Below, piece after piece: positions 477 to 34,276 of a DNA stretch of 37,552 nucleotides. The position numbers were made by a program, and so were the translations under genes. The notes under the pieces are model-generated. The model was not told the origin of the DNA, did no database searches, and worked only from the letters and a program-made list of their open reading frames with translations. Positions within the stretch are counted from its first letter, which is position 1, and the number at the start of each line of letters is the position of its first letter. This stretch comes from Desulfobulbaceae bacterium. Lineage in GTDB: Bacteria; Desulfobacterota; Desulfobulbia; Desulfobulbales; Desulfocapsaceae. The DNA is taken from contig JALSMA010000069.1 of NCBI GenBank assembly GCA_026988015.1, positions 1 to 37,552 on the forward strand, in the 5' to 3' direction.

Positions 477-1976
477 TTACGAGAAGTTGAGATTAAAGTC
501 AACATTGAGCAGGTAGCGGGCCTCTTGTTCAAGGCTGGCCAGCTGTAACGGATGGTTGCGTAATTCATCCTTTGCAAAGTGGAGGGTCAGGTTGTTATTG
601 TGAGCCGTGATTTTGTCAAGAACAGCAGTTTCTTCCTTGCGGGATCTGTGCAGGAGAGTGGCAAGGCGAAGCAGAACCACAAGTCTCAGTGCAGTTTCCT
701 GATTTTGATCCAGTAGTGTTCTGAAGAGTTTCAATGATATCTTTTTACGATGACAGCGTACCAGCACACTCATCCAGTCCTGTTCCTCGTAGGAGAACCC
801 GGGGAGGTCGGCATGATCCAGCAGATAGGCTCCATGTTTCTGGTATCCGCTCAAAGATACTGCCAGGCCGATTTCATGGAGACTGCAGGCCCAGTGCAAT
901 CGTTCGGCGTCTTCAATGCTGAACCCCCAGTTTTGCTCACAGGCAGTCAGTAACTGGTGGGCTTTTTTACTCACCCGGCGTGCATGTTTCTGGCTGATCT
1001 GAAAGCGTTGCTGGATACTGGTGACCGTTTTTAAACGGGTATCTTCACTCTGGATCCGGCCAAGACGTTCATAGAGCAGACCTTCCCGCAGTGCTCCGTC
1101 AGAAACCTCCATGGTCTTGATTTTTAAGGCTTCAAAGGTGGCGATGAGAATGGCAAGACCACCGGCAAATACGGGATGTCTGTCATGTTTCAGACCGGGC
1201 AGGTTAAGGTTGGAGAGTTTTCCGGCAGCAATCATCTGCTCGCGGATGGTATAGAGGTTGTCCAGAGTGATATGGTAGGAGTCAAGTCCCAGTTTCTGCA
1301 CAACCCTGCCTATGGCCTTTATGGTTCCAGAGGCTCCGGTGGCAGAGGTCCATTCGACTTTCTGAAAATAGCGTCTTACTGGACGCAGTTCAAGATGAGC
1401 TGCAATTCCCGCTTTTTTCCAGTGTTTCCTTCCCAGCTTGCCATTTTTGAAAAACCTGCGACTCATACTGACACAGCCCATATCCAGACTGCGAAGGAGC
1501 AGGGGGTCAAAGTCTTCGCCGATGATCAGTTCAGTGCTTCCTCCGCCAATATCCATGACAAAGCGTATCCCGTCTTCAGCCACCAGAGAGTGGGAAACAC
1601 CTAAGTAGACCAGTCGAGCCTCTTCTCTACCACCAATGACAGAGATAGGGTGTCCCAAAACTTCACTAGCATTCCTGAGGAAGATACGGGAATTTTTTGC
1701 CTGGCGCAGGGTTTTTGTACCCACGGCAGCGACACTGCCTGTCGGAAAATCGTTGACACGTTCACTGAATCTTTCCAGGCAGGCAAGGGCACGGGTTCGG
1801 GATTCCTGGGAGAGGATGCCGTTGTCGTCCAGGCCTGCTCCGAGGCGTACCATCTCTTTTAAATTGTCAAGGATGTGGACGTGACCATCTTCAATCCTGG
1901 CCACAACCATGTGAAAACTGTTGGAACCAAGGTCTATGGCGGCTAAATGCTGTTGTTTTGGTTGTGGCGTGTTCAC
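477..1976 (-). CDS. ppx: Ppx/GppA-family exopolyphosphatase
   Basis: The 499-aa product belongs to the Ppx/GppA phosphatase family of the ASKHA fold, which releases phosphate from polyphosphate and/or the 5'-phosphate of pppGpp in the cytoplasm. The N-terminus has the family phosphate-binding motif AIDLGSNSFHMVVA (about residues 13-26), and DIGGGSTELIIG (about 143-154) is the second phosphate loop. The C-terminal 180 residues form the HD-like helical domain (LHEIGLAV, then HGAYLLDHADLPGF). Length matches full-length Ppx/GppA rather than the short 300-aa form. The start is GTG, chosen because AGGAAAAG lies at good spacing upstream and the phosphate motif follows within 15 residues. It is divergent from the phosphatase/ABC block, with about 270 bp between. 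Ppx and GppA cannot be separated by eye, so the symbol is tentative. Confidence 0.88.
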   Translation of the reverse strand: MNTPQPKQQHLAAIDLGSNSFHMVVARIEDGHVHILDNLKEMVRLGAGLDDNGILSQESRTRALACLERFSERVNDFPTGSVAAVGTKTLRQAKNSRIFLRNASEVLGHPISVIGGREEARLVYLGVSHSLVAEDGIRFVMDIGGGSTELIIGEDFDPLLLRSLDMGCVSMSRRFFKNGKLGRKHWKKAGIAAHLELRPVRRYFQKVEWTSATGASGTIKAIGRVVQKLGLDSYHITLDNLYTIREQMIAAGKLSNLNLPGLKHDRHPVFAGGLAILIATFEALKIKTMEVSDGALREGLLYERLGRIQSEDTRLKTVTSIQQRFQISQKHARRVSKKAHQLLTACEQNWGFSIEDAERLHWACSLHEIGLAVSLSGYQKHGAYLLDHADLPGFSYEEQDWMSVLVRCHRKKISLKLFRTLLDQNQETALRLVVLLRLATLLHRSRKEETAVLDKITAHNNNLTLHFAKDELRNHPLQLASLEQEARYLLNVDFNLNFS

Positions 1977-2245: not shown

Positions 2246-4096
2246 ATGAAAATGCCACCTTGGAAAATGGAGATACTTTACCCGAAGAGTCTGCAGCAGC
2301 GAACCATCATCTTCGTGCTGGTTCCCATTTTTATCTTCCTCACCCTTGCCGGAGTATCCGGCTATAGGGCGGTTCGCAATATACTCCTTGATCAGTGGAG
2401 CGAGGCAGCCCTTGCAAAGCTAGGAAAATCGGCCCTTGATATTGACTTACAGTTGCAACGCCCCAAGCAGGTACTTCTCCTGTTGGAAGGAATTACAGAC
2501 AAAGTTTTGTCTGAAGGTCTTGAGGAAATAGTCAAGGAACAGCTTGGTAGAGTCGAGGGTGTGCTCAGCGTGAATATAACCTGGGTCTCCTCCATGGCAC
2601 GGGATGAACTTCGCTTTAAGGGGAGAGGGAGCGGGGGAGGAGGCGGGTGGTTTGGCAGGCGTGCGAATTCCCGATGGTTATTTGATATTACTCCTCCTGT
2701 GTATAATGTTGAAAATAACAGTAAAACCGTTGCCATGGTCACGGACCTGGTCAATAAAAATGGTTTTAAGGTGGGAGATATAGAAGTTATTCTTGATTTT
2801 GAAAAACTAATCTCGCGTACAGCGAAGAAGCCATGGTGGAATATTAACAAAGCCTATATTGTTGATCATAATGGCACTATTTTGATCAGTACAGACCCAG
2901 AACAGCAGGAGGTGGCAGGAGGAACACGAAGAGTCTTTGGTGATAACGGAATTCTGGAACAGAAAACCCTTGAAGCGCTGCGTGAAAATATTTCGGGGAC
3001 TGTGTTCGGGCCTGGGCGGCCTCCAGAGGAGATTAGTGGCTTCTACCATCTTCAGGAGGCTCCCTGGATCATGATTGTTGTTGCACCCGGTAAAAAAGTC
3101 TTGAAGCCGATCATCGAGTTTCGTCTGGTTTTCTTTCTTTCCGCAATGGGCTGCATTGGGATTGTGCTTCTTTTTATCCGGATTATGATCAGCAAGACCA
3201 CTCGGGCCATCAACGAGTTGTCCCGGACCGCAAGTGATCTTGCCCGTGGTGTTTTTGGTGAACCGCTACCTGTGTACACCAGGGATGAGGTTGGTGTCTT
3301 GACAGAAAACTTTAATATAATGACCAGCCAGCTCAGGAAAGGTGTACAGTTACAGAAGGCTATGGATATAGCCAAAGAGGTACAGATGACTCTGTTACCG
3401 AAAACAGATCTTCAGGGCAGGGGAGTGGAGATCAGTGGACTCAGTACATACTGTGATGAAACGGGTGGTGACTACTTTGATTTTATTGATTCTGATCTTC
3501 AGTCTGGCCGGTGTCATGTCATTGTCGGTGATGTTGTAGGTCATGGAATCGGTGCAGCACTACTGATGGCCACCCTTCGTGCTCTGGTGCGCGCCAATAT
3601 TTATGGTGGTGACCGCCCTGAAGCAATTGTTTCCCGGGTGAATCGTCAGCTTTGCCTGGATACAGCCGAACAGGGTAATTTTGCCTCGCTGTTCCACCTC
3701 TTTGTTGATGTGACCGGGCAGCAACTGCAGTGGGTCCGGGCCGGGCATGATCCGGCAATTCTTTTTAATACAGTGACAGGCACTTTTTCAGAGCTTAAAG
3801 GAGAAGGACTTGTACTCGGCTTAAACCCGGAATATGTATTCCAGAGTAATACTATCAGACTTAATGGGGAGAGGGTCTTGCTGTTGCTAGGCAGTGATGG
3901 GGTCTGGGAGGCTGTGAATGAAAAAAATGAACAATATGGGAAAGAACGCCTGAAGGAGTTGATACGGGCGAATAGAGAATGTTCCCCCGGGGAACTCTTG
4001 CAGCTTGTAAACGAGTCCATAACGCGGTTCAGGGGTGGTGTTGCCCTTTGCGATGATATTACCCTAGTGGCCATTGTTATTGATGACACACTCTAG
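2246..4096 (+). CDS. Membrane-bound SpoIIE/RsbU-type PP2C serine phosphatase with HAMP domain
   Basis: This 616-aa protein is a sensor phosphatase. A TM helix at about 20-38 is followed by a ~255-residue extracytoplasmic region, a second TM at about 295-315, a HAMP linker (SRTASDLARGVFGEPLPVY, then DEVGVLTENFN) and a C-terminal SpoIIE PP2C domain from about 370. The metal-binding motifs are visible: GGDYFDF (about 407-413), GDVVGHGIGAALLM (about 428-441), LLLGSDGVWE and CDDITLVAI. The family dephosphorylates STAS anti-anti-sigma factors, and a STAS gene and an RsbW-like kinase gene lie three and two genes downstream. The extracytoplasmic region contains a glycine-rich stretch (GRGSGGGGGWFG). 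The frame also offers TTG at 2237; ATG 2246 is preferred because CAGG lies about nine bases upstream. Confidence 0.88.
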   Translation: MKMPPWKMEILYPKSLQQRTIIFVLVPIFIFLTLAGVSGYRAVRNILLDQWSEAALAKLGKSALDIDLQLQRPKQVLLLLEGITDKVLSEGLEEIVKEQLGRVEGVLSVNITWVSSMARDELRFKGRGSGGGGGWFGRRANSRWLFDITPPVYNVENNSKTVAMVTDLVNKNGFKVGDIEVILDFEKLISRTAKKPWWNINKAYIVDHNGTILISTDPEQQEVAGGTRRVFGDNGILEQKTLEALRENISGTVFGPGRPPEEISGFYHLQEAPWIMIVVAPGKKVLKPIIEFRLVFFLSAMGCIGIVLLFIRIMISKTTRAINELSRTASDLARGVFGEPLPVYTRDEVGVLTENFNIMTSQLRKGVQLQKAMDIAKEVQMTLLPKTDLQGRGVEISGLSTYCDETGGDYFDFIDSDLQSGRCHVIVGDVVGHGIGAALLMATLRALVRANIYGGDRPEAIVSRVNRQLCLDTAEQGNFASLFHLFVDVTGQQLQWVRAGHDPAILFNTVTGTFSELKGEGLVLGLNPEYVFQSNTIRLNGERVLLLLGSDGVWEAVNEKNEQYGKERLKELIRANRECSPGELLQLVNESITRFRGGVALCDDITLVAIVIDDTL

Positions 4097-4176
4097 TGTG
4101 TTCAGTGGTTGACGATACCCTGATTTCGTGGGCGATTGCTGGCGTCCCCGTTTGGTATGCCTGATTAGAAAGAGGT

Positions 4177-6717
4177 GTGATGTCTAAAATATCTACTCCA
4201 AAACCTGTAACCAGGAGAAACCTGTTTTTTTGGGCATTTCAGGGAAATATGAAGATGCAGCTGCTGCTCCTGCTGCTTATCGTAGGGATGGTATTTTTCA
4301 GGGTGGTTCCCCTGGAGATGCAGAAACGGATAGTAAACGATGCTATTTCGCTTGGCAAGTTTGACAGTTTGCTGCTGTATTGTGGAATCTACATTATGGC
4401 TGTTACTACCACTGCAGGGTTGAAGCTCGGGGCCAATTATCTGCAGGCAGTGATCGGTGAGCGGGCCATGCTTTCCATGAGGAAGGATCTTTATGGTCAC
4501 GTCATCCAGCTTCCGCTGCACTTTTTCCGTAAAACTCAGCCTGGAATGGTGGTTGCTGCACTGATGACCGAGCTTAGTACAGCTGGGAACTTTGCCGGGA
4601 TGGCTCTTGCTGTACCCATTTCAAATATTCTCACCCTGCTGGCTTTTGCCGGTTATCTGTTGTGGTTGAATCCGCAGCTGGCCCTGGCAACCCTCGGAAT
4701 CTATCCGGTGGTAGCTTTTCTTATTCCCTATCTTCAAAAAAAAGCCAACCGTCTGAATAAGAAAAGGGTGGATCAGTCCCGACTGCTTTCGAGTCAGATT
4801 GCCGAGTCCATCACAGGGATCACTGAGATAAATGTTCACGGTGCTTATGAGCAGGAAAAGAAAAAGTTTAATATTTTTGCCGAAACACTTCGTACCATCA
4901 GAACCAAGTGGTCACTGCTGCGGTTTGGCATCAAGACGGTAAATAATTATTTTGCCAGTCTCGGGCCTTTTGTGGTTTTTCTTTTTGGAGGATACCTGGT
5001 GATGCATGGAGAGCTTGAGCTTGGTTCACTTGTGGCATTTCTCTCAGCCCAGGAGAAACTCTACGATCCTTGGAAAGAACTTATCGATTATTATCAAGTC
5101 TATCAGGATGCCTCCATTCGTTATTATCGCACCATGGAATATTTTGATGTCTCAGCAGGTCATGAAATGCTTCTGCCATCATCGCCCGCATCACTCGCCG
5201 GCACCGTGGAAATTTCAAATCTCGGATTTACCACCAGCAGTGGCATTACTCTGCTGCGTGGGGTTTCTTTTTCTCTTGATAGTGGAGAGACTATGGCTCT
5301 GATCGGATTTTCCGGAAGTGGCAAGAGTACTCTGATCCATTGTGTTGCCAAGATGTTTGACTATTCCAGTGGTTCAATACGCCTTGGTGGTCATGAGGTA
5401 AAGACCATGGAGAAGGGTGAGATCATACGAAATGTGGGATATATTTCACAACAGCCTTTTATCTTCTCCGGAACCATTCGTGAAAATCTGCTCTACGCGT
5501 ATCGGGCAGCTGCTGAAGAGAGGTGTCAGTCTGAGGAGTACCGGGAGCCTGAGCTTGACTCGCTCATTTTTGCCCTGCAGCAGGCGGGAATATTTGTAGA
5601 TGTTATCCGTTTTGGTCTCAACACAGTTCTTGATCCTGATGATGCTGTAATGATAGATAAAATTGTACGAATTAGAAAGCAGTTTCGGGCTCATTTCGGA
5701 GATTCTCTGGCTGATTGTGTCGAGTTTTACCGGAGTGACAGCTATCTCTATCATAGTAGTGTTGTGGAAAATATTGTTTTTGCCACACCACTTGATCCCG
5801 GGGTGTCTCTGCTGTCCTTTGCAGACAAGGAACGTTTTCAGGATTTTCTGGAAGAGATGCAACTCATTGACCCTTTGCTGGCGCTGGGGCTTGAACTGGC
5901 ATCCCGGATCGTTGAGAAAAACAATGAGTCGGACATGGAAGGCGATTTTCCAGATGACGTTTTGGCAGTTGATCCCGAGCAGTTGGGTCGATATCGGGAG
6001 GCCCTGGTACATGGCAGAAAAAATACCACTGCGTCTCTGACCCGGGGAGACCGTCTACTGTTGCTCCGGCTTGCGCTGCAGTATGTACCCAGAGATAATT
6101 CACTGATCGATGCTGCCGTATTTGAAGAAAAGGTCCTGAAAAGTCGCAGGTTCTGGTGCGGCTGGGCCCAGGAAAATTTTCCCGGGCAGTTCCGTTGCTA
6201 TGAGGAGGATCGTTATATCCATGGGCAGTCCATGCTCGACAACATTCTTTTCGGCAGGTTGAAAACAGAAGAAGAACAGGTTCAGGAGCAGGTTAATCAG
6301 AATATCATCCGACTCCTTATCGAGGAAGATTGCCTGGAATCCATAACTGAGACAGGAATGGAATACCATCTGGGGAGTATGGGGAATCTACTCTCGGGTG
6401 GTCAGAAACAGAAACTCTCCATTGCCAGGGTACTTTTGAAAAACCCCAGGATAGTTCTCATGGACGAAGCCACATCAGCCCTTGACAACAAATCACAGAC
6501 AAGAATACAGAATCTGATTCAACGTCGCTGGAAAAATAATCGTACTGTCATCGCAGTGGTTCATCGTCTGGATGGGATAGAGGGTTTTGACAAAATAGGT
6601 GTGATGAAAGGTGGGCGACTGATAGAGTTTGGGACGCACAATGACCTTATATCTCTCTCTGGATTATATTGTGAACTCGTTTATGGCACGGAGAGGGGCA
6701 ATGGCACGCAGGGGTGA
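4177..6717 (+). CDS. ABC exporter-type transporter (TMD-NBD) with a large insertion in the nucleotide-binding domain
   Basis: 846 aa: a six-TM exporter domain (about 25-320), then one nucleotide-binding domain. Walker A is GFSGSGKST (377-385), the Q-loop YISQQPF (422-428), the signature LSGGQ (739-743), Walker B IVLMDEATSALD (about 759-770), and the switch His lies in VVHR near 796. Walker A and signature are normally about 100-110 residues apart; here they are about 355 apart. The extra ~250 residues contain two further degenerate copies of the Q-loop/ENLLYA block: around 517-536 (ends SSVVENIVFA) and 674-693 (ends QSMLDNILFG), beside the original at 422-441 (ends SGTIRENLLYA). The frame stays open with normal codon use, so this is not a pseudogene. 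Substrate unknown; it probably works as a homodimer. A start at the next codon (ATG 4180) is equally possible. It lies between the phosphatase and the kinase gene that overlaps its 3' end. Confidence 0.88.
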   Translation: MMSKISTPKPVTRRNLFFWAFQGNMKMQLLLLLLIVGMVFFRVVPLEMQKRIVNDAISLGKFDSLLLYCGIYIMAVTTTAGLKLGANYLQAVIGERAMLSMRKDLYGHVIQLPLHFFRKTQPGMVVAALMTELSTAGNFAGMALAVPISNILTLLAFAGYLLWLNPQLALATLGIYPVVAFLIPYLQKKANRLNKKRVDQSRLLSSQIAESITGITEINVHGAYEQEKKKFNIFAETLRTIRTKWSLLRFGIKTVNNYFASLGPFVVFLFGGYLVMHGELELGSLVAFLSAQEKLYDPWKELIDYYQVYQDASIRYYRTMEYFDVSAGHEMLLPSSPASLAGTVEISNLGFTTSSGITLLRGVSFSLDSGETMALIGFSGSGKSTLIHCVAKMFDYSSGSIRLGGHEVKTMEKGEIIRNVGYISQQPFIFSGTIRENLLYAYRAAAEERCQSEEYREPELDSLIFALQQAGIFVDVIRFGLNTVLDPDDAVMIDKIVRIRKQFRAHFGDSLADCVEFYRSDSYLYHSSVVENIVFATPLDPGVSLLSFADKERFQDFLEEMQLIDPLLALGLELASRIVEKNNESDMEGDFPDDVLAVDPEQLGRYREALVHGRKNTTASLTRGDRLLLLRLALQYVPRDNSLIDAAVFEEKVLKSRRFWCGWAQENFPGQFRCYEEDRYIHGQSMLDNILFGRLKTEEEQVQEQVNQNIIRLLIEEDCLESITETGMEYHLGSMGNLLSGGQKQKLSIARVLLKNPRIVLMDEATSALDNKSQTRIQNLIQRRWKNNRTVIAVVHRLDGIEGFDKIGVMKGGRLIEFGTHNDLISLSGLYCELVYGTERGNGTQG

Positions 6718-7114
6718 TGAACTAATGGAGTTTTCGGGGTCAATCAGCACTCTGGAAGAGCTGCATGCTTTGAGCCTGATGGTGCATGAGGTCGCATCGG
6801 ACTGGGGGATCAGCGAGAAAGTGCTGTTTGAGGTTAGTTTGATTGTGGAGGAGTTTTGCAGTAACTCTGTTAAATATGGTGGGATACCCGTTGGAGTAGG
6901 GATAAAACTTGCTGATTCTGTCATAACCATCATGATAACAGACAGTGGTAAACCTTTTGACCCCACTGAGGTGGCTGTACCGGATGTGACCTTACCCCTT
7001 GAGGAGCGTAAGGCTGGAGGGCTTGGTATCCATTTTGTGAATCATTTTGCTGACACGATTGTTTACAGTCGTGAAAACGGCAGGAATATTTTGAAAATCG
7101 AGAAAAAAATATAA
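6701..7114 (+). CDS. RsbW/SpoIIAB-like anti-sigma-type serine kinase (HATPase)
   Basis: A small GHKL ATPase of the kind that phosphorylates STAS proteins or sequesters a target. The N box is EEFCSNSVKYG, G1 is DSGKPFDP and G2 is GGLGIHFV, all in the order expected for RsbW/SpoIIAB. Length is 137 aa from ATG 6701 or 129 aa from ATG 6725 (MEFSGS); both overlap or abut the end of the ABC gene (stop 6715-6717). GGAGAGGGG before 6701 favours the upstream start, but homology starts near MEFSG. The overlap implies translational coupling to the transporter. No sigma factor is seen in the block, so the kinase's regulated target may be something else, perhaps the transporter itself (inference). Confidence 0.85.
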   Translation: MARRGDELMEFSGSISTLEELHALSLMVHEVASDWGISEKVLFEVSLIVEEFCSNSVKYGGIPVGVGIKLADSVITIMITDSGKPFDPTEVAVPDVTLPLEERKAGGLGIHFVNHFADTIVYSRENGRNILKIEKKI

Positions 7115-7156
7115 CCTTGAAGCCGCTACGGATTCAGGATAAATGCGAGTAGAAAT

Positions 7157-7486
7157 ATGCTTATTAATACCTCTCAGAAAGAGAATTTGCAGATTGTCAG
7201 TATCGAAGGCAGGTTGGACTCGTTAACAGCCCCGGAACTTGAACTCTGGATACGTGACAACCTGGCATCTCCAGAGTTTGATGTGGTGATGGACTTTAGT
7301 AATCTGGATTATATCTCCAGTGCTGGGCTGCGGGTGATGCTTAATCTATCAAAGGCCGCTGCGAGGTATTCACGAAAGTTTTCGGTGTGCCAGGCGCAGG
7401 ATCATATCCGGGAGGTTTTTGAGATATCCGGCTTTGATTCCTTTATTCCACTTTGTGACTCACTGGATGATGTCCTCGCGCTGTAA
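7157..7486 (+). CDS. STAS-domain anti-sigma factor antagonist
   Basis: 109 aa, the size of a single STAS domain (SpoIIAA/RsbV family). The phosphorylation loop DYISSAGLRVML is present at about 51-62; by alignment with RsbV (Ser two residues before the Gly of SxGL) Ser55 would be the phosphorylated residue. In the family, the kinase phosphorylates this Ser and the PP2C phosphatase removes the phosphate, which toggles binding to the kinase. It is the last gene of the plus-strand block, 42 bp behind the kinase gene, and its 3' end faces the metal permease gene 25 bp away with no clear terminator between them. Confidence 0.88.
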   Translation: MLINTSQKENLQIVSIEGRLDSLTAPELELWIRDNLASPEFDVVMDFSNLDYISSAGLRVMLNLSKAAARYSRKFSVCQAQDHIREVFEISGFDSFIPLCDSLDDVLAL

Positions 7487-7511: not shown

Positions 7512-8765
7512 TCACAGATTTCGATCTTTGTTTAATGAAGCTATTGGAAGAATCTGTACAGGATGAGGTGTGGTGGTGCACCCGCAATTCGCTTCTTGTT
7601 TGTCCTGATAGTTGTGTCCACGGGAATGATGGTGGCCATGGTGGTGGCTGCCATTTGTTGCGCAGGCCTCTGCCGAGCAGCCACATCTGTTTCCCTGGCC
7701 AAACCAGCCAGCAAAGATAGCATAGAGTGGACGGATAGAAAGCGCAAGAAGCAGGAGGGTAGCTGATGTCATAATCCAGGCGGGAAGAACTTCAGCAGCC
7801 TGGCCCACTGCAGCAACTGCTGAAATGCCGAGGGAGATGTAGACAGCATCGACGGCAAGGCCGCAGAGAACACTGATTATGGCAATGGAGAGCAAGTAGA
7901 GGGCAGTTGCTCGTTTGCCAAGTAGTCCGATGAGTACTGACAGTGAGGTGACGTTGGTGGCGGGGCCAACCAGCAAAAAGACAAGGGCTGTGCCTGGGCT
8001 TACTCCCTTCATGATAAAGGCGGCGGCAATGGGGGTGGATGCTGTCGCACAGATGTAGAGCGGGATGCCGAAGGTGAGCATGAGTAGCATGGATGATAGT
8101 CCGCCACCAAGATATTTGGCAATGACAGCGTCAGGAACAAGGACACTGATGAGTCCTGCCAGGAAAATTCCCACAAAAAACCATCCGGCAAGATCAGCCC
8201 AGAGATCGGTTGCTGCGTATTGCGTTCCTATTTTGAGTTTTTCGAGGAGACTGTGGTGATGTTTGTGCTGCTCCGGTGGACAGTCGATGCCATCACAGCA
8301 GTTGTCTATGGGGCAGCTCAGGTCTGGTTTTACCTGTCTGGCAGTGGAAGGCGGGTTGAAGAAGTTTTCTGCAGAACCGGCTGCAAAGGCTGAAAGGAAT
8401 GCTGATATTGGTCTGGCGATGGTCATGATAGGGTCGAGCAAAGCCCAGGTTATGGATATTGAATCTACACCAGACTCAGGGGTGGAGATAAGAAAGGCTG
8501 TGGTTGCACCATTGTTGGCGCCCTGTTTTTTGAGGGCAGTGGCTGCAGGTAATACCCCGCAGGAGCATAGTGGAATAGGGATACCCAGCAGTGCGGCTTT
8601 AAACACGGAGCTGAAGCGTCCGCTGCCAAGGTGAGCTGCAACATAGGCTGGTGAGAGAAACATTTTGAGTAGTCCGCCAACCAGAAGGCCAAAAAGGATG
8701 TAGATCGATGCCTGTTGCAGCATATCCCAGGAAGCGAAGAGAAGGTCATAAAGAAAAGTGAGCAT
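7512..8765 (-). CDS. SO_0444-family metal efflux permease (DUF318/ArsP-like), His/Cys-rich
   Basis: The 417-aa polytopic inner-membrane protein belongs to the permease superfamily that includes ArsP and SO_0444 Cu/Zn efflux proteins. The family signature IPIPLCSCGVLPAA is at about 62-75 (CSCG at 67-70), with a mirrored second half (FGIPLYICATASTPIAAA). Two metal-binding low-complexity stretches are visible: a Cys/His loop at about 151-171 (CPIDNCCDGIDC, then HKHHH) and a C-terminal tail with CGC, HHHGHHHSRGH and CGC. It lies 36 bp downstream of an ArsR repressor gene on the same strand, which supports metal-induced efflux. Which metal is exported cannot be read from the sequence. Confidence 0.85.
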   Translation of the reverse strand: MLTFLYDLLFASWDMLQQASIYILFGLLVGGLLKMFLSPAYVAAHLGSGRFSSVFKAALLGIPIPLCSCGVLPAATALKKQGANNGATTAFLISTPESGVDSISITWALLDPIMTIARPISAFLSAFAAGSAENFFNPPSTARQVKPDLSCPIDNCCDGIDCPPEQHKHHHSLLEKLKIGTQYAATDLWADLAGWFFVGIFLAGLISVLVPDAVIAKYLGGGLSSMLLMLTFGIPLYICATASTPIAAAFIMKGVSPGTALVFLLVGPATNVTSLSVLIGLLGKRATALYLLSIAIISVLCGLAVDAVYISLGISAVAAVGQAAEVLPAWIMTSATLLLLALSIRPLYAIFAGWFGQGNRCGCSAEACATNGSHHHGHHHSRGHNYQDKQEANCGCTTTPHPVQILPIASLNKDRNL

Positions 8766-31216: not shown

Positions 31217-34200
31217 TTATTTTTTGCTGGCACAGCCCATGAGCCAGACAAGTTCCTGATTTGAGCGACTGACACTGTTGACTTTAACCTGAAATCCTGC
31301 CTCTTTCAATAGCACTGCCATGGTATCGGCATCTCTGTAATATGTTTTTTTACCAGCCAGTTTGATCCGATACTCCTCGAGTTTCCAGGATAATGATGGA
31401 ACACCGTCTGGGCGGGTGACAAATCTGGCAAGTACAATACCCCTGTGGGCCATTCCCTGAAAACAGTTTGTGAAGAGTGTCTGTACGCTGAGGTCGTCGA
31501 GGTAGTGGAGCATATCCAGCAGCAGAACCAGGTCAGGAGCATGTGGGAGGACTGGGAGTTCCGGAGCGGCATTCTCCACAATCTGTCCTCTGTCTCCCAT
31601 GGCCAGGGCTGCCACCCGGACTCGCTCATTGTCAGGATCAACGCCGTATATTTTCGCATTTGGGAAATATTCCAGGCACCAGCAGCCGGGAATTCCGTAT
31701 CCGCAGCCAATGTCAAGGATGGTTGTGATTCGATCCTGTGCTCCATGCAACAATTCCGGCAGATCCGTGAACATCGGGTCGTACTGAAGTTTGAACCGGG
31801 CAAACATGCGGGGGTATGCCTCCATCAGGCGAAACCTGTCCCGTGTGTTATGGATGATATCCTGCTGAACTATTCGATTAGGAGATTCTTTTTTGAAATA
31901 TATTTCAAGCAGGGGTGGTAGCAACAGAAAAGCACCCAGCAGTGAATAGCCTATTCCCAGCAGTGAGGTGATGCCGATTGAGCGCAGCAGGGAGTGGTCA
32001 GCCAGGCAGAGTACACCAAATCCGATGATGGTTGAGGAACCGGCCATAAAAACAGCCATGCGAACACGGCTGAAGGCGGGATGGGCAGAATCGCGGTAGC
32101 GCTGATGTGCCCTGACAAAGAAGATGGAGTAATCTATGCCCATGCCGAGGATGACAATGGAGAGCATGAGGCCGGGGATGTCCAGGGGATGACTAATGAG
32201 TTTCATGGTTCCAAGGGTACATACATAGGAGAAAAGGGGGGGGGTGAGGGTGATAAGGGCAAGCTGCCAACTGGCAAAAAAGAGCAGCAGCAGGGCAACG
32301 ATACTCGTAGCAATGATCGCAAGCATGGTGAGGAAACTATTAAAGAGGATTTTCGCGAGCTTACTGGAAAAATAAGGACTGTCAAATATCTTTCCCTGAG
32401 CGCCATAGCTCTTATAAAAATCTTCACTGTTGTACTTTTTGCCGGGACTTATGTTTATAAACTGTATAAGCCTTCCTTCCTTCTCTGATATACCTAGGGG
32501 TTTGAAAAACTTTTCGGGAATATCTGTAGCCTTCGGGGTGAACCCGGGATCAAGGATTGTCAGGAAGTGATTAAATGCATCATTTCTGAATCCGTTCCTG
32601 CTGCTGCTCTTCATGAGATTCAGGCGAAGGTCATTTATCCTGTCATCGGTCCAGAATGCCTTCCAGTCGTCCAGGTTCTGCGCCGCTTGTTCCTCACCTG
32701 GGAAAACCATGGAAGCAGAAAATGCGGCATCGATTTTCCCGGCTGTCATATCTTTACTGAGTCTTCTAAGAATTCGATCGTTCTGCTGTTGAAGGGCAGC
32801 AATGGAGTTACCTTCAAGCATAAGGATAACCTTGTTTCCCATCTCTCCCCACACCTCAGTGAAGAGTTTGTCTGCTGCCATGGTCTCTTCACTCACCGTA
32901 TTCATACTTTCAAGGCTGACGTTAATCTCAGGCCGGGCAAAAAAGAGCAGGACGCAGGCAAGGATAAAAGATGCTACTGCACCTGTTTTCCCTGTGGAGT
33001 AGAGTGCGTTCACCAGGCCCTGTAGGGGGAGTCTTCGGGTTCTGGAGGGTGGCGGCATGGAAGGGGTGAGGTAGGGGAAAATAAAATGGACAAAGAGGAA
33101 GGAAAAGAACACTCCCATGGCAGTAAACTGCCCCAGTTGTACAAAAATTGGAAATCCGCTGAAGGAGAGAGTGAGAAAGGCTCCACAGGTGGTGAGAACT
33201 GCAAGGATTCCAATGGCTCTGATCTCCCGTGAAGCATCTTTTCCCCTGGTTGTTTTGCTGCGGTCAAGGAAGAGCAGGTAGGCAATGCCATGGTCTACGG
33301 TTATGGAGATTATGGCACCGCCAAAGCCGAGTACCATGATGGAGATTGAGGAATGAAAGAGTGAGAAAAGCAGTAGGGAAACAGCGGTGCCGGCAAGGGC
33401 AGGAAGCAGCGAGAACAGTCCCAGCAGAGGACGGGGAAAGGCAATAAAAAGTAAGATTCCTATTCCTGCGGTGGAAAGCAGGAGTGCCAGATTGACGTCG
33501 TGGCGAATAATACGTTCGTTATCCAGTGCCGCCCGGTAGGCTCCCACGGGGGTGAGGGTGATTTCTGTGTTTGTGGCGCTGTTGTTGTATTGCTCTGCAA
33601 GACTTGCAGCAACATCGTTGAGAAGTTCAGATATCTGTCTGGCTGTCGCTGTGTTGGTCCCTGTGGTATCAGGTCTTGCCGTAACCAGCATGTGGCGTTT
33701 ATCTGCTGAAAAAACAAAACCGTTGTGAATACTGGTGCCACTCACTGGGGCCAGCATTGCCATTCTGGCCATAACCGGTTCCATGAACCCAAGGGGATCA
33801 TTTATAATAAATTTGCTTTGACCGATCCCTTCAAGGCTGCTCAGCTTCTGGTGGATGGATTTGAACCGCTTTTCAATAAACTGTTTATTCAGGCGAGGAG
33901 CGATGTCTTGTTTAAGCTGATTGGAGGAAAAGAGGAGAGGCAGGCTGGAGGTGACCTGGAGGGCTAGTTCCGGTATAAGGCTTGATATCTCGCTGGTACC
34001 CACATCTGTGAACAGGCCACTGTTTCTGAGCGCCTCTTCCAGCTCCTTGCCACAGGCCACCAGCAGGCGAGGATTTTTGGTGCCGGCTGATATATCAATC
34101 GCAATCTGATCCTGAATAGGATGGCTGCGGAAAATATCAAGGGCGTCTTTTATGATCTTTTCTTCAACTGGGAGAGAGCGTACAATGTCTGTATCGATGG

Positions 34201-34276
34201 AGAGACGAAAGATACCAGCTGCCGCGGTGCAGAAAATCAGGACAAAAACAGTGATGAGAAGGCGAATGTTAAACAC
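31217..34276 (-). CDS. MMPL/RND-type lipid exporter fused to a C-terminal SAM methyltransferase
   Basis: 1019 aa. Residues 1-795 are an RND-superfamily MMPL exporter: TM1 at about 5-23, a large periplasmic loop, a TM cluster (about 262-402), a second periplasmic part (about 450-640), a second TM cluster (about 642-795), with GFGGAIISITVDHGIAYLL and GMGIDYSIFFVRAHQRY as the family's TM4/TM10 motifs. Residues 800-1019 form a class-I methyltransferase: DIGCGYGIPG (855-864), VDPD after beta-2, LLLDMLHYLDD. The exporters of this type move lipids or polyene lipids; the C-terminus would lie in the cytoplasm. The start is GTG with a weak ribosome site. The fusion may couple methylation and export of one lipid; separate but adjacent genes of these types occur in aryl-polyene-like clusters. 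No other such gene is here. Confidence 0.85.
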   Translation of the reverse strand: MFNIRLLITVFVLIFCTAAAGIFRLSIDTDIVRSLPVEEKIIKDALDIFRSHPIQDQIAIDISAGTKNPRLLVACGKELEEALRNSGLFTDVGTSEISSLIPELALQVTSSLPLLFSSNQLKQDIAPRLNKQFIEKRFKSIHQKLSSLEGIGQSKFIINDPLGFMEPVMARMAMLAPVSGTSIHNGFVFSADKRHMLVTARPDTTGTNTATARQISELLNDVAASLAEQYNNSATNTEITLTPVGAYRAALDNERIIRHDVNLALLLSTAGIGILLFIAFPRPLLGLFSLLPALAGTAVSLLLFSLFHSSISIMVLGFGGAIISITVDHGIAYLLFLDRSKTTRGKDASREIRAIGILAVLTTCGAFLTLSFSGFPIFVQLGQFTAMGVFFSFLFVHFIFPYLTPSMPPPSRTRRLPLQGLVNALYSTGKTGAVASFILACVLLFFARPEINVSLESMNTVSEETMAADKLFTEVWGEMGNKVILMLEGNSIAALQQQNDRILRRLSKDMTAGKIDAAFSASMVFPGEEQAAQNLDDWKAFWTDDRINDLRLNLMKSSSRNGFRNDAFNHFLTILDPGFTPKATDIPEKFFKPLGISEKEGRLIQFINISPGKKYNSEDFYKSYGAQGKIFDSPYFSSKLAKILFNSFLTMLAIIATSIVALLLLFFASWQLALITLTPPLFSYVCTLGTMKLISHPLDIPGLMLSIVILGMGIDYSIFFVRAHQRYRDSAHPAFSRVRMAVFMAGSSTIIGFGVLCLADHSLLRSIGITSLLGIGYSLLGAFLLLPPLLEIYFKKESPNRIVQQDIIHNTRDRFRLMEAYPRMFARFKLQYDPMFTDLPELLHGAQDRITTILDIGCGYGIPGCWCLEYFPNAKIYGVDPDNERVRVAALAMGDRGQIVENAAPELPVLPHAPDLVLLLDMLHYLDDLSVQTLFTNCFQGMAHRGIVLARFVTRPDGVPSLSWKLEEYRIKLAGKKTYYRDADTMAVLLKEAGFQVKVNSVSRSNQELVWLMGCASKK

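Follow-up and report, generated by a model that had tools for sequence, protein, structure and literature searches.

The window analysed here is a stretch of 37,552 nt from a Desulfobulbaceae bacterium (contig JALSMA010000069.1, referred to as C69, of a genome of 3.15 Mb in 91 contigs). Its subject is a block of four genes encoding a membrane PP2C phosphatase, an ABC exporter with an enlarged nucleotide-binding domain (NBD), an RsbW-like kinase and a STAS protein (Table 1). A first-pass annotation, made from the DNA letters alone, had placed these four proteins in one block and had described the kinase gene as overlapping the transporter gene. Both descriptions are confirmed by Pfam and by reading of the DNA: the four genes are real and intact and lie on the same strand. 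The likeliest kinase start is ATG 6701 (137 aa), which gives an overlap of 17 nt with the ABC gene (stop codon at 6715-6717); the longest kinase frame begins at TTG 6629. The PP2C and ABC genes are separated by 83 nt and the kinase and STAS genes by 42 nt. No sigma factor is encoded within the four-gene block.

Table 1 Features of the four-gene block (positions in the window; exporter residue numbers of the repeat units and the bridge are counted from GTG 4177)
Feature	Position	Strand	Evidence
Membrane PP2C (SpoIIE-type) phosphatase	2246..4096	+	Pfam SpoIIE 2.3e-40, HAMP 1.7e-10; hydropathy, motif positions
ABC exporter, ABCB-like fold, 845 aa; GTG 4177 alternative start	4180..6717	+	Pfam ABC_membrane, ABC_tran; AlphaFold2; Sav1866 2hyd
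NBD repeat unit 1, canonical Q-loop/helical segment, residues 407-486	5395..5634	+	Alignment, hhalign
NBD repeat unit 2, degenerate extra Q-loop/helical segment, residues 490-580	5644..5916	+	hhalign, isolated model
Insertion "bridge", residues 581-644, largest rate rise in the clade lacking the cyclic-nucleotide-binding (CNB) gene	5917..6108	+	Rate comparison
NBD repeat unit 3, residues 645-743, running into the LSGGQ signature	6109..6405	+	hhalign, alignment
RsbW/SpoIIAB-like kinase (HATPase_c_2), 17-nt overlap with the ABC gene	6701..7114	+	Pfam 1.7e-20; DSGKPFDP, GGLG motifs
STAS-only protein, YISSAGLR phospho-site motif	7157..7486	+	Pfam STAS 2.1e-16; TIGR00377; motif

Judged by domains and motifs, the phosphatase, kinase and STAS protein form a module of the RsbU/W/V type, with a SpoIIE PP2C, an HATPase_c_2 kinase and a STAS protein carrying a Ser/Thr site. 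The phosphatase consists of a hydrophobic stretch (~24-34), an outer region of ~260 aa, a second hydrophobic stretch (~297-310), a HAMP domain (315-364) and the PP2C domain (420-610). Its SpoIIE domain scores 139.1 bits (Pfam cut-off 25) and the PP2C motifs are present, and it fails the SiaA model NF038263 (60.1 bits, cut-off 700). The outer region has no Pfam match; the PP2C beside a related exporter (L075) matches dCache_1, below the cut-off of that model. The kinase scores 73.7 bits for HATPase_c_2 (cut-off 27.4), carries both ATP-site motifs in its translation and stays below the NCBIfam equivalog cut-offs for RsbW and SpoIIAB. The STAS protein passes TIGR00377 (70.6 bits, NCBIfam cut-off 53.45) and fails the MlaB model NF033618 (19.6 bits, cut-off 90). 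The phospho-site residue is Ser in 64 of 66 STAS proteins with a kinase nearby. It is Thr in five of the seven STAS proteins without a kinase nearby versus 2/66 with one, an anecdotal difference only, as those five form one clade.

The exporter is, from its motifs and predicted fold, an ABCB-like half transporter with fused transmembrane domain (TMD) and NBD, including Walker A, Q-loop, signature and Walker B. Pfam assigns ABC_membrane (3.2e-33) and, in two stretches, ABC_tran (5.4e-28). The AlphaFold2 model, built from 71 sequences, has a mean predicted local distance difference test score (pLDDT) of 84.0 with weak regions at 163-178 and 282-292. It superimposes on Sav1866 (2hyd; Z 31.4, 444 residues at 3.3 Å) and on the TAP1 NBD (2ixe; Z 31.7, 247 residues at 1.8 Å). 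Fold and motifs are those of MsbA and other ABCB-like exporters, and the best NCBIfam model is TIGR02203 (MsbA_lipidA). The exporter nevertheless fails this equivalog model (298.8 bits, cut-off 602) and differs from MsbA by two extra Q-loop/helical repeats in the NBD. No peptidase domain was found in it with Pfam.

The enlargement of the NBD is an insertion of ~250 residues between Q-loop and signature, whose repeat character had been overlooked in the first-pass annotation. In hhalign comparisons of family profiles, unit 2 matches unit 3 with Prob 98.2 (E 4.6e-14), unit 1 matches unit 2 with Prob 91.5 and unit 1 matches unit 3 with Prob 79.4. Seven other regions compared with the three units as a control (21 comparisons) all remain at Prob ≤12.3. 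In our reading, the insertion is made up of two additional, degenerate copies of the Q-loop/helical segment. A known separate domain was considered and rejected: phmmer against PDB sequences returned one match at E 0.16, and Foldseek gave no significant match for the model of unit 2 plus bridge (best E 0.96), which was predicted alone with mean pLDDT 87.9. When the 627 Foldseek candidates were rescored with VIA-align, ABC proteins took ranks 1-46, mostly over their Q-loop-to-signature stretch, led by NBD1 of CFTR (6gkd; Z 6.1, 71 residues at 2.5 Å). With Z ≤6.1 and some rows at 6-10 Å root-mean-square deviation, these matches are weak alone, and the repeat argument is carried by the profile comparison.

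To find relatives, searches were made with the ABC insertion alone, which avoids bias from ordinary ABC exporters and from neighbouring genes. Of 297 genomes sampled from the phylum, the window's own among them, 20 have the insertion. In addition, 84,980 species genomes were scanned with one peptide pattern and the best 80 of 117 relatives were used; this single-pattern scan under-samples clade B (see below) and distant forms. The two sets shared 4 loci; once these duplicates were dropped, 101 were left for classification. Neighbours were called at E 1e-3 with hidden Markov models grown from the window proteins and one CNB seed, a procedure that may miss strongly divergent neighbours. A tree on the columns outside the insertion, covering 93 of the 101 loci (the rest being too short), separates clade A, with 79 rows including the window, from clade B with 14. 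Clade A comprises 87 loci in all, and 79 of them have ≥2.5 kb of downstream sequence, a set that differs from the 79 tree rows. An apparent spread beyond the phylum was discarded: a contig titled Candidatus Aminicenantes (L125) has branch length 0 from a metagenome-assembled genome of Desulfobacteraceae (L127) and is probably mis-binned.

The neighbourhood of the exporter is conserved in clade A. Kinase and STAS genes are both found near the exporter in 64 of the 79 loci with sufficient downstream sequence, window included; STAS is near in 71 and the kinase in 65. By a scripted rule the pair lies downstream in 57 of these loci. The other seven show different arrangements: divergent in L079, L091 and L099, upstream in L123 and L136, split in L115, and downstream in L108, which the rule mis-scored. 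The linkage thus survives rearrangement, as the pair has changed sides relative to the ABC gene in L079, L091, L099, L123 and L136. A STAS gene without a kinase nearby occurs in 7/79 loci, and a kinase without STAS in one (L088), which contains masked sequence. Since the block is conserved across genera, the arrangement is not a matter of chance. A lack of conserved order among relatives had been named in the first-pass annotation as evidence that would speak against a functional link; for kinase and STAS the opposite was observed. The exact four-gene order stood up in part only. The linkage of kinase and STAS is wide, but only a few lineages have a PP2C gene immediately before the exporter gene on the same strand (9 of the 87 loci of clade A, short-contig loci counted; one of the nine, L114, is a weak partial match). 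Of the 53 loci in which 3.5 kb are available to either side, 22 have a PP2C gene within that distance.

The most tightly linked neighbour of the exporter family is absent from the window block and had been missed. In 73 of the 79 clade A loci, and in all 13 clade B loci with ≥2.5 kb downstream (a fourteenth ends too early), the next gene after the exporter, in the same orientation, encodes a stand-alone CNB protein; Pfam cNMP_binding was recovered in the three proteins tested (8.6e-17, 6.8e-16 and 1.6e-15). The six clade A loci without it are the window, L062, L063, L064 and L084, all from the window's own clade, and L081, where a run of N follows the ABC gene. L062 is too broken for the tree and is 79% identical over the insertion; L061 also belongs to this clade and lacks CNB, with a flank too short for counting. 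Within this survey, the window's own clade is the only one with a genuine lack of CNB. In clade B, kinase or STAS is found nearby in 0/13 loci. These exporters have the insertion and the CNB gene, so that the insertion was rejected as a kinase/STAS-specific feature and did not arise for the switch.

The window clade, which lost CNB and kept the remaining genes, is a natural experiment. Rates were obtained as branch lengths on a fixed topology for 92 rows, relative to the exporter core (TMD + NBD core). The insertion evolves at 3.13 in the window clade versus 1.74 in the rest of the tree, and the bridge at 6.67 versus 2.34. When 29 clades of similar depth, some of them nested, are ranked, the window clade and its two nested subclades come first to third. 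On end branches longer than 0.03, which 83 of the 92 rows have, the five rows of the window clade show bridge ratios of 5.0-11.0; for the 78 others the median is 2.2, the 90th percentile 4.5 and the maximum 6.4 (Mann-Whitney p 1.4e-6). By class, the relative rate of the bridge is 7.5 in the CNB-less clade versus 1.7-3.6 in the other classes, among them 1.8 with neither kinase nor STAS (7 rows), 2.7 with STAS only (5), 3.6 in clade B (13) and 2.3 with both (48). Exporters without kinase/STAS nearby hence show no acceleration of the bridge. L161, which is outside the tree, follows the same pattern, with an identity to the window of 0.77 in the TMD and 0.29 in the bridge. STAS is also faster in the CNB-less clade (1.98 vs 1.11, p 3e-4), whereas the kinase rate is unchanged (2.28 vs 2.20, p 0.38). 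Outside the window clade, the insertion rate correlates with that of CNB (rho 0.36, p 0.002) and of the kinase (rho 0.35, p 0.015), although the correlated rates share a denominator, which by itself pushes rho to positive values. For the bridge alone, rho is 0.22 with CNB, 0.27 with the kinase and 0.04 with STAS, none of which reaches p 0.05. Our reading is that CNB is the main constraint on the insertion, and that STAS is on the same side of the complex. Conserved-but-switched sites are few: five separate clades A and B, all of them outside unit 2 and the bridge, and exporters with and without CNB differ at 0 to 1 such sites. Therefore, no contact residues are named.

Targets elsewhere in the genome were also considered. 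Eight Sigma70_r2 proteins are encoded: three RpoD-like, one RpoH, one FliA/WhiG, two of the extracytoplasmic function (ECF) type and one that matches no NCBIfam model at the 1e-20 limit. None of the eight reaches the SigB, SigF or SigG cut-offs (sigma-54 was not searched), the highest score for TIGR02980 (SigBFG) being 132.5 with a cut-off of 234.35. The observation that no sigma factor lies near the block thus holds and extends, for SigB/F/G-type matches, to the whole genome, and such a sigma factor was set aside as the simple target. The switch may still act through ECF factors, sigma-54 or other sigma factors, or on other targets. The genome also has three matches to PF00211, the class III nucleotide cyclases, which could supply a ligand for proteins of the CNB type.

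In the classical wiring of RsbW/RsbV and SpoIIAB/SpoIIAA, the kinase binds the target and the unphosphorylated STAS protein pulls the kinase off. SiaA and SiaB are the PP2C and the kinase of the SiaABCD pathway, and HetC-type ABC exporters carry a CNB domain. RsbU/RsbW/RsbV and SpoIIE/SpoIIAB/SpoIIAA share with the window a PP2C, an HATPase_c_2 kinase and a STAS protein with a conserved phospho-site, but their target is a sigma factor, while the window block has an ABC exporter in a genome without a SigB/F/G-type match; in other systems (SypA) the unphosphorylated STAS protein is the output (PMC8256260). SiaABCD of Pseudomonas aeruginosa likewise joins a PP2C, a kinase, a small partner protein and an effector in one pathway, in which SiaC activates the effector SiaD within a complex (PMC8457831). 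That effector is a diguanylate cyclase, however, and the window PP2C scores far under the SiaA cut-off. HetC-type ABC exporters offer a further comparison (PMC10986499): in the relatives of the window, CNB is tied to an ABC exporter too, but as a separate gene, which is absent from the window block, and Pfam found no peptidase domain in the window exporter.

The closest precedent is a solved one, the MlaF-MlaB pair, in which the STAS protein MlaB is bound to the helical subdomain of the NBD of MlaF (PMC7367683). MlaF-MlaB and the window have in common a STAS-only protein encoded with an ABC transporter and a conserved Ser/Thr at the STAS site, and the substitution T52E at the equivalent site weakens MlaF binding. 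The regulation of MlaB is given there as an open question with phosphorylation as one possibility, and the passages on it name no kinase, whereas the window block encodes both a kinase and a PP2C. MlaF is moreover a separate ATPase of a lipid-trafficking complex; in the window's exporter, ABCB-like in fold, TMD and NBD are fused and the Q-loop/helical segment is multiplied. Among the papers listed by searches of the open-licence PubMed Central literature, judged by titles and abstract starts, none described a system of the window's kind, and MlaFB came nearest. Partner switching and ABC exporters are each known; no description was found of the two together, joined to a multiplied helical segment and CNB.

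The co-encoding and the enlarged motor domain suggest that the switch turns the pump itself on or off. We give roughly even chances to the block being a transporter-dedicated partner switch with STAS as the transporter-side element that docks on the enlarged NBD. In favour are the binding of MlaB to the MlaF helical subdomain together with the make-up of the insertion from extra copies of the Q-loop/helical segment, the linkage of kinase and STAS to the exporter through rearrangements, the lack of a SigB/F/G-type match, the faster bridge and STAS but unchanged kinase in the CNB-less clade, and the phospho-site Ser of nearly all STAS proteins with a kinase nearby. The more frequent linkage of STAS, and its persistence without the kinase, favour this role of STAS modestly. 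We infer every binding step, the phosphorylation and the sign of the following scheme. Unphosphorylated STAS would dock on the enlarged NBD, most likely on the helical-segment repeats, and set activity or assembly of the exporter. The RsbW-like kinase would phosphorylate the STAS serine and so remove STAS from the NBD; the membrane PP2C, gated through HAMP by a signal at its periplasmic domain, would dephosphorylate STAS and restore docking. In most relatives, CNB would be a second regulator or input on the same enlarged NBD; with its loss in the window lineage, the phospho-switch would be left as the sole adjacent regulator. Activation is the preferred sign, by analogy with MlaB and SiaC.

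Several observations weigh against STAS docking. The rate shift is one evolutionary event, which branch-level p-values do not cure, and the bridge ranges of the window clade and the other rows overlap. The acceleration of STAS could reflect relaxation. Outside the window clade, STAS and insertion rates are uncorrelated (rho 0.18, p 0.19), and the correlations obtained there speak against STAS being the only contact. The insertion is also present in clade B, where kinase and STAS are not found nearby, and in clade A neither gene is found in 7/79 loci (L040, L042, L081, L092, L093, L120 and L137, with runs of N in L081, L092 and L093). For MlaB itself, T52A bound MlaF but was non-functional, which its authors found difficult to reconcile with simple phospho-regulation (PMC7367683). 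The first-pass proposal that the switch controls the transporter is strengthened by linkage, by the missing SigB/F/G-type match and by the MlaB/MlaF precedent, but not by the insertion, which is not specific to the switch.

If the classical wiring applied, the kinase would bind and inhibit the exporter or CNB, and unphosphorylated STAS would pull the kinase off without ever touching the transporter. The overlap of the kinase and ABC genes and the correlation of kinase and insertion rates outside the window clade agree with this wiring. It is nonetheless judged unlikely, given the seven loci that have STAS and no kinase nearby (five of them one clade) and the flat kinase rate where insertion and STAS accelerate. 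Marginally less probable still is that CNB is the sole regulator touching the exporter, while kinase, STAS and PP2C control a remote target such as exporter expression, an ECF sigma factor or a cyclase. In its favour, no neighbour is as constant as CNB in either clade, the insertion is accelerated where CNB was lost and not in exporters that have no kinase/STAS nearby, and the cyclase matches make a CNB ligand conceivable. Against a remote target stand the kinase and STAS genes kept beside most clade A exporters through rearrangements, the retention of the switch after CNB loss in the window clade, and the lack of a SigB/F/G-type sigma factor. Plain co-transcription of a general partner switch in an exporter operon, with no mechanistic link, is improbable: partner-switch sets do occur elsewhere, for instance on contig C57 of the same genome, but neither the depth of conservation nor the linkage preserved in rearranged loci would be expected from it.

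STAS docking on the exporter, joined to the CNB data, leads to a wider proposal that is held tentatively, at slightly less than even chances: a new kind of ABC exporter in which two extra helical segments dock both CNB and a STAS protein served by its own kinase and periplasm-sensing phosphatase, so that pump activity rather than transcription would be the output of a dual-input RsbU/W/V-type switch. If true, partner switching would extend from transcription and cyclases to membrane transport, and multiplication of the Q-loop/helical segment would be an unusual route to a larger ABC motor domain. STAS, RsbW-like kinase and ABC transporter genes, in some lineages with PP2C, are neighbours in dozens of genomes, among them those of strains with DSM numbers: Desulfopila aestuarii (L066) and Desulfatibacillum alkenivorans (L072), both with CNB, and Desulfogranum mediterraneum (L084) from the CNB-less clade of the window. 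How a STAS protein on an ABC transporter is itself regulated, the question left open for MlaB, thereby becomes directly testable.

Within the genus of the window, the insertion was matched in 15 of 17 genomes, the window's own included. The order PP2C-ABC-kinase-STAS without CNB is found in the window, G300, G303 and G304; G306 shares it, its ABC gene being split over three frames. G303, G304 and G306 appear to equal L063, L061 and L062, which leaves G300 (L161) as the only new example. The ABC gene spread over three reading frames (L062:1771-4308 / L163:1771-4308) points to assembly error or decay. G298 has the exporter and CNB, with no kinase/STAS in the 10 kb examined, and the remaining members, known from match scores only, mostly resemble the clade B copy of the window's genome. 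G319 has the genes in the order ABC-CNB-kinase-STAS-PP2C, within the same taxonomic order.

The clade B copy in the window's own genome is a second exporter on contig C86 (L054:2393-5471), with the same insertion and CNB next to it; no kinase/STAS was found nearby. The partner-switch set on contig C57 (L059:9585-12090) is separate and comprises a STAS-PilZ fusion, an HATPase_c_2 kinase and a response-regulator-PP2C, suggesting a link to cyclic di-GMP.

Other genes recur near the exporter: a PqqD-like protein in 23 loci (PF05402 in the one tested), proteins of ~309 aa in 27 and ~213 aa in 24, and a 658-aa protein, by eye a membrane protein, in 14. Examples are found within L072-L133 (e.g. L073:9653-13834 and L105:9969-14145), and the PqqD-like, ~309-aa and ~213-aa genes also stand beside the clade B copy of the window's genome (L054:5546-7544). 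The recurrent genes may point to a shared pathway, possibly that of the substrate. In clade B loci L049, L050 and L058, genes for an HD-domain protein and a peptidase S58 follow the ABC-CNB pair (Pfam was run on the L058 pair only).

In the window, the block is flanked by a divergent Ppx/GppA gene (477-1976, minus strand) and a convergent gene for an ArsP-like permease (7512-8765, minus strand), beyond which an ArsR-type regulator gene is located. Promoter and terminator scans gave 13 versus 7.8 ± 3.2 and 12 versus 5.8 ± 3.0 in shuffles and were not used as evidence. A search of a plasmid collection returned no match. Further along the window, a frame of 1019 aa (31217-34276, minus strand) has by eye the appearance of an RND/MMPL-type exporter with a C-terminal methyltransferase-like domain.

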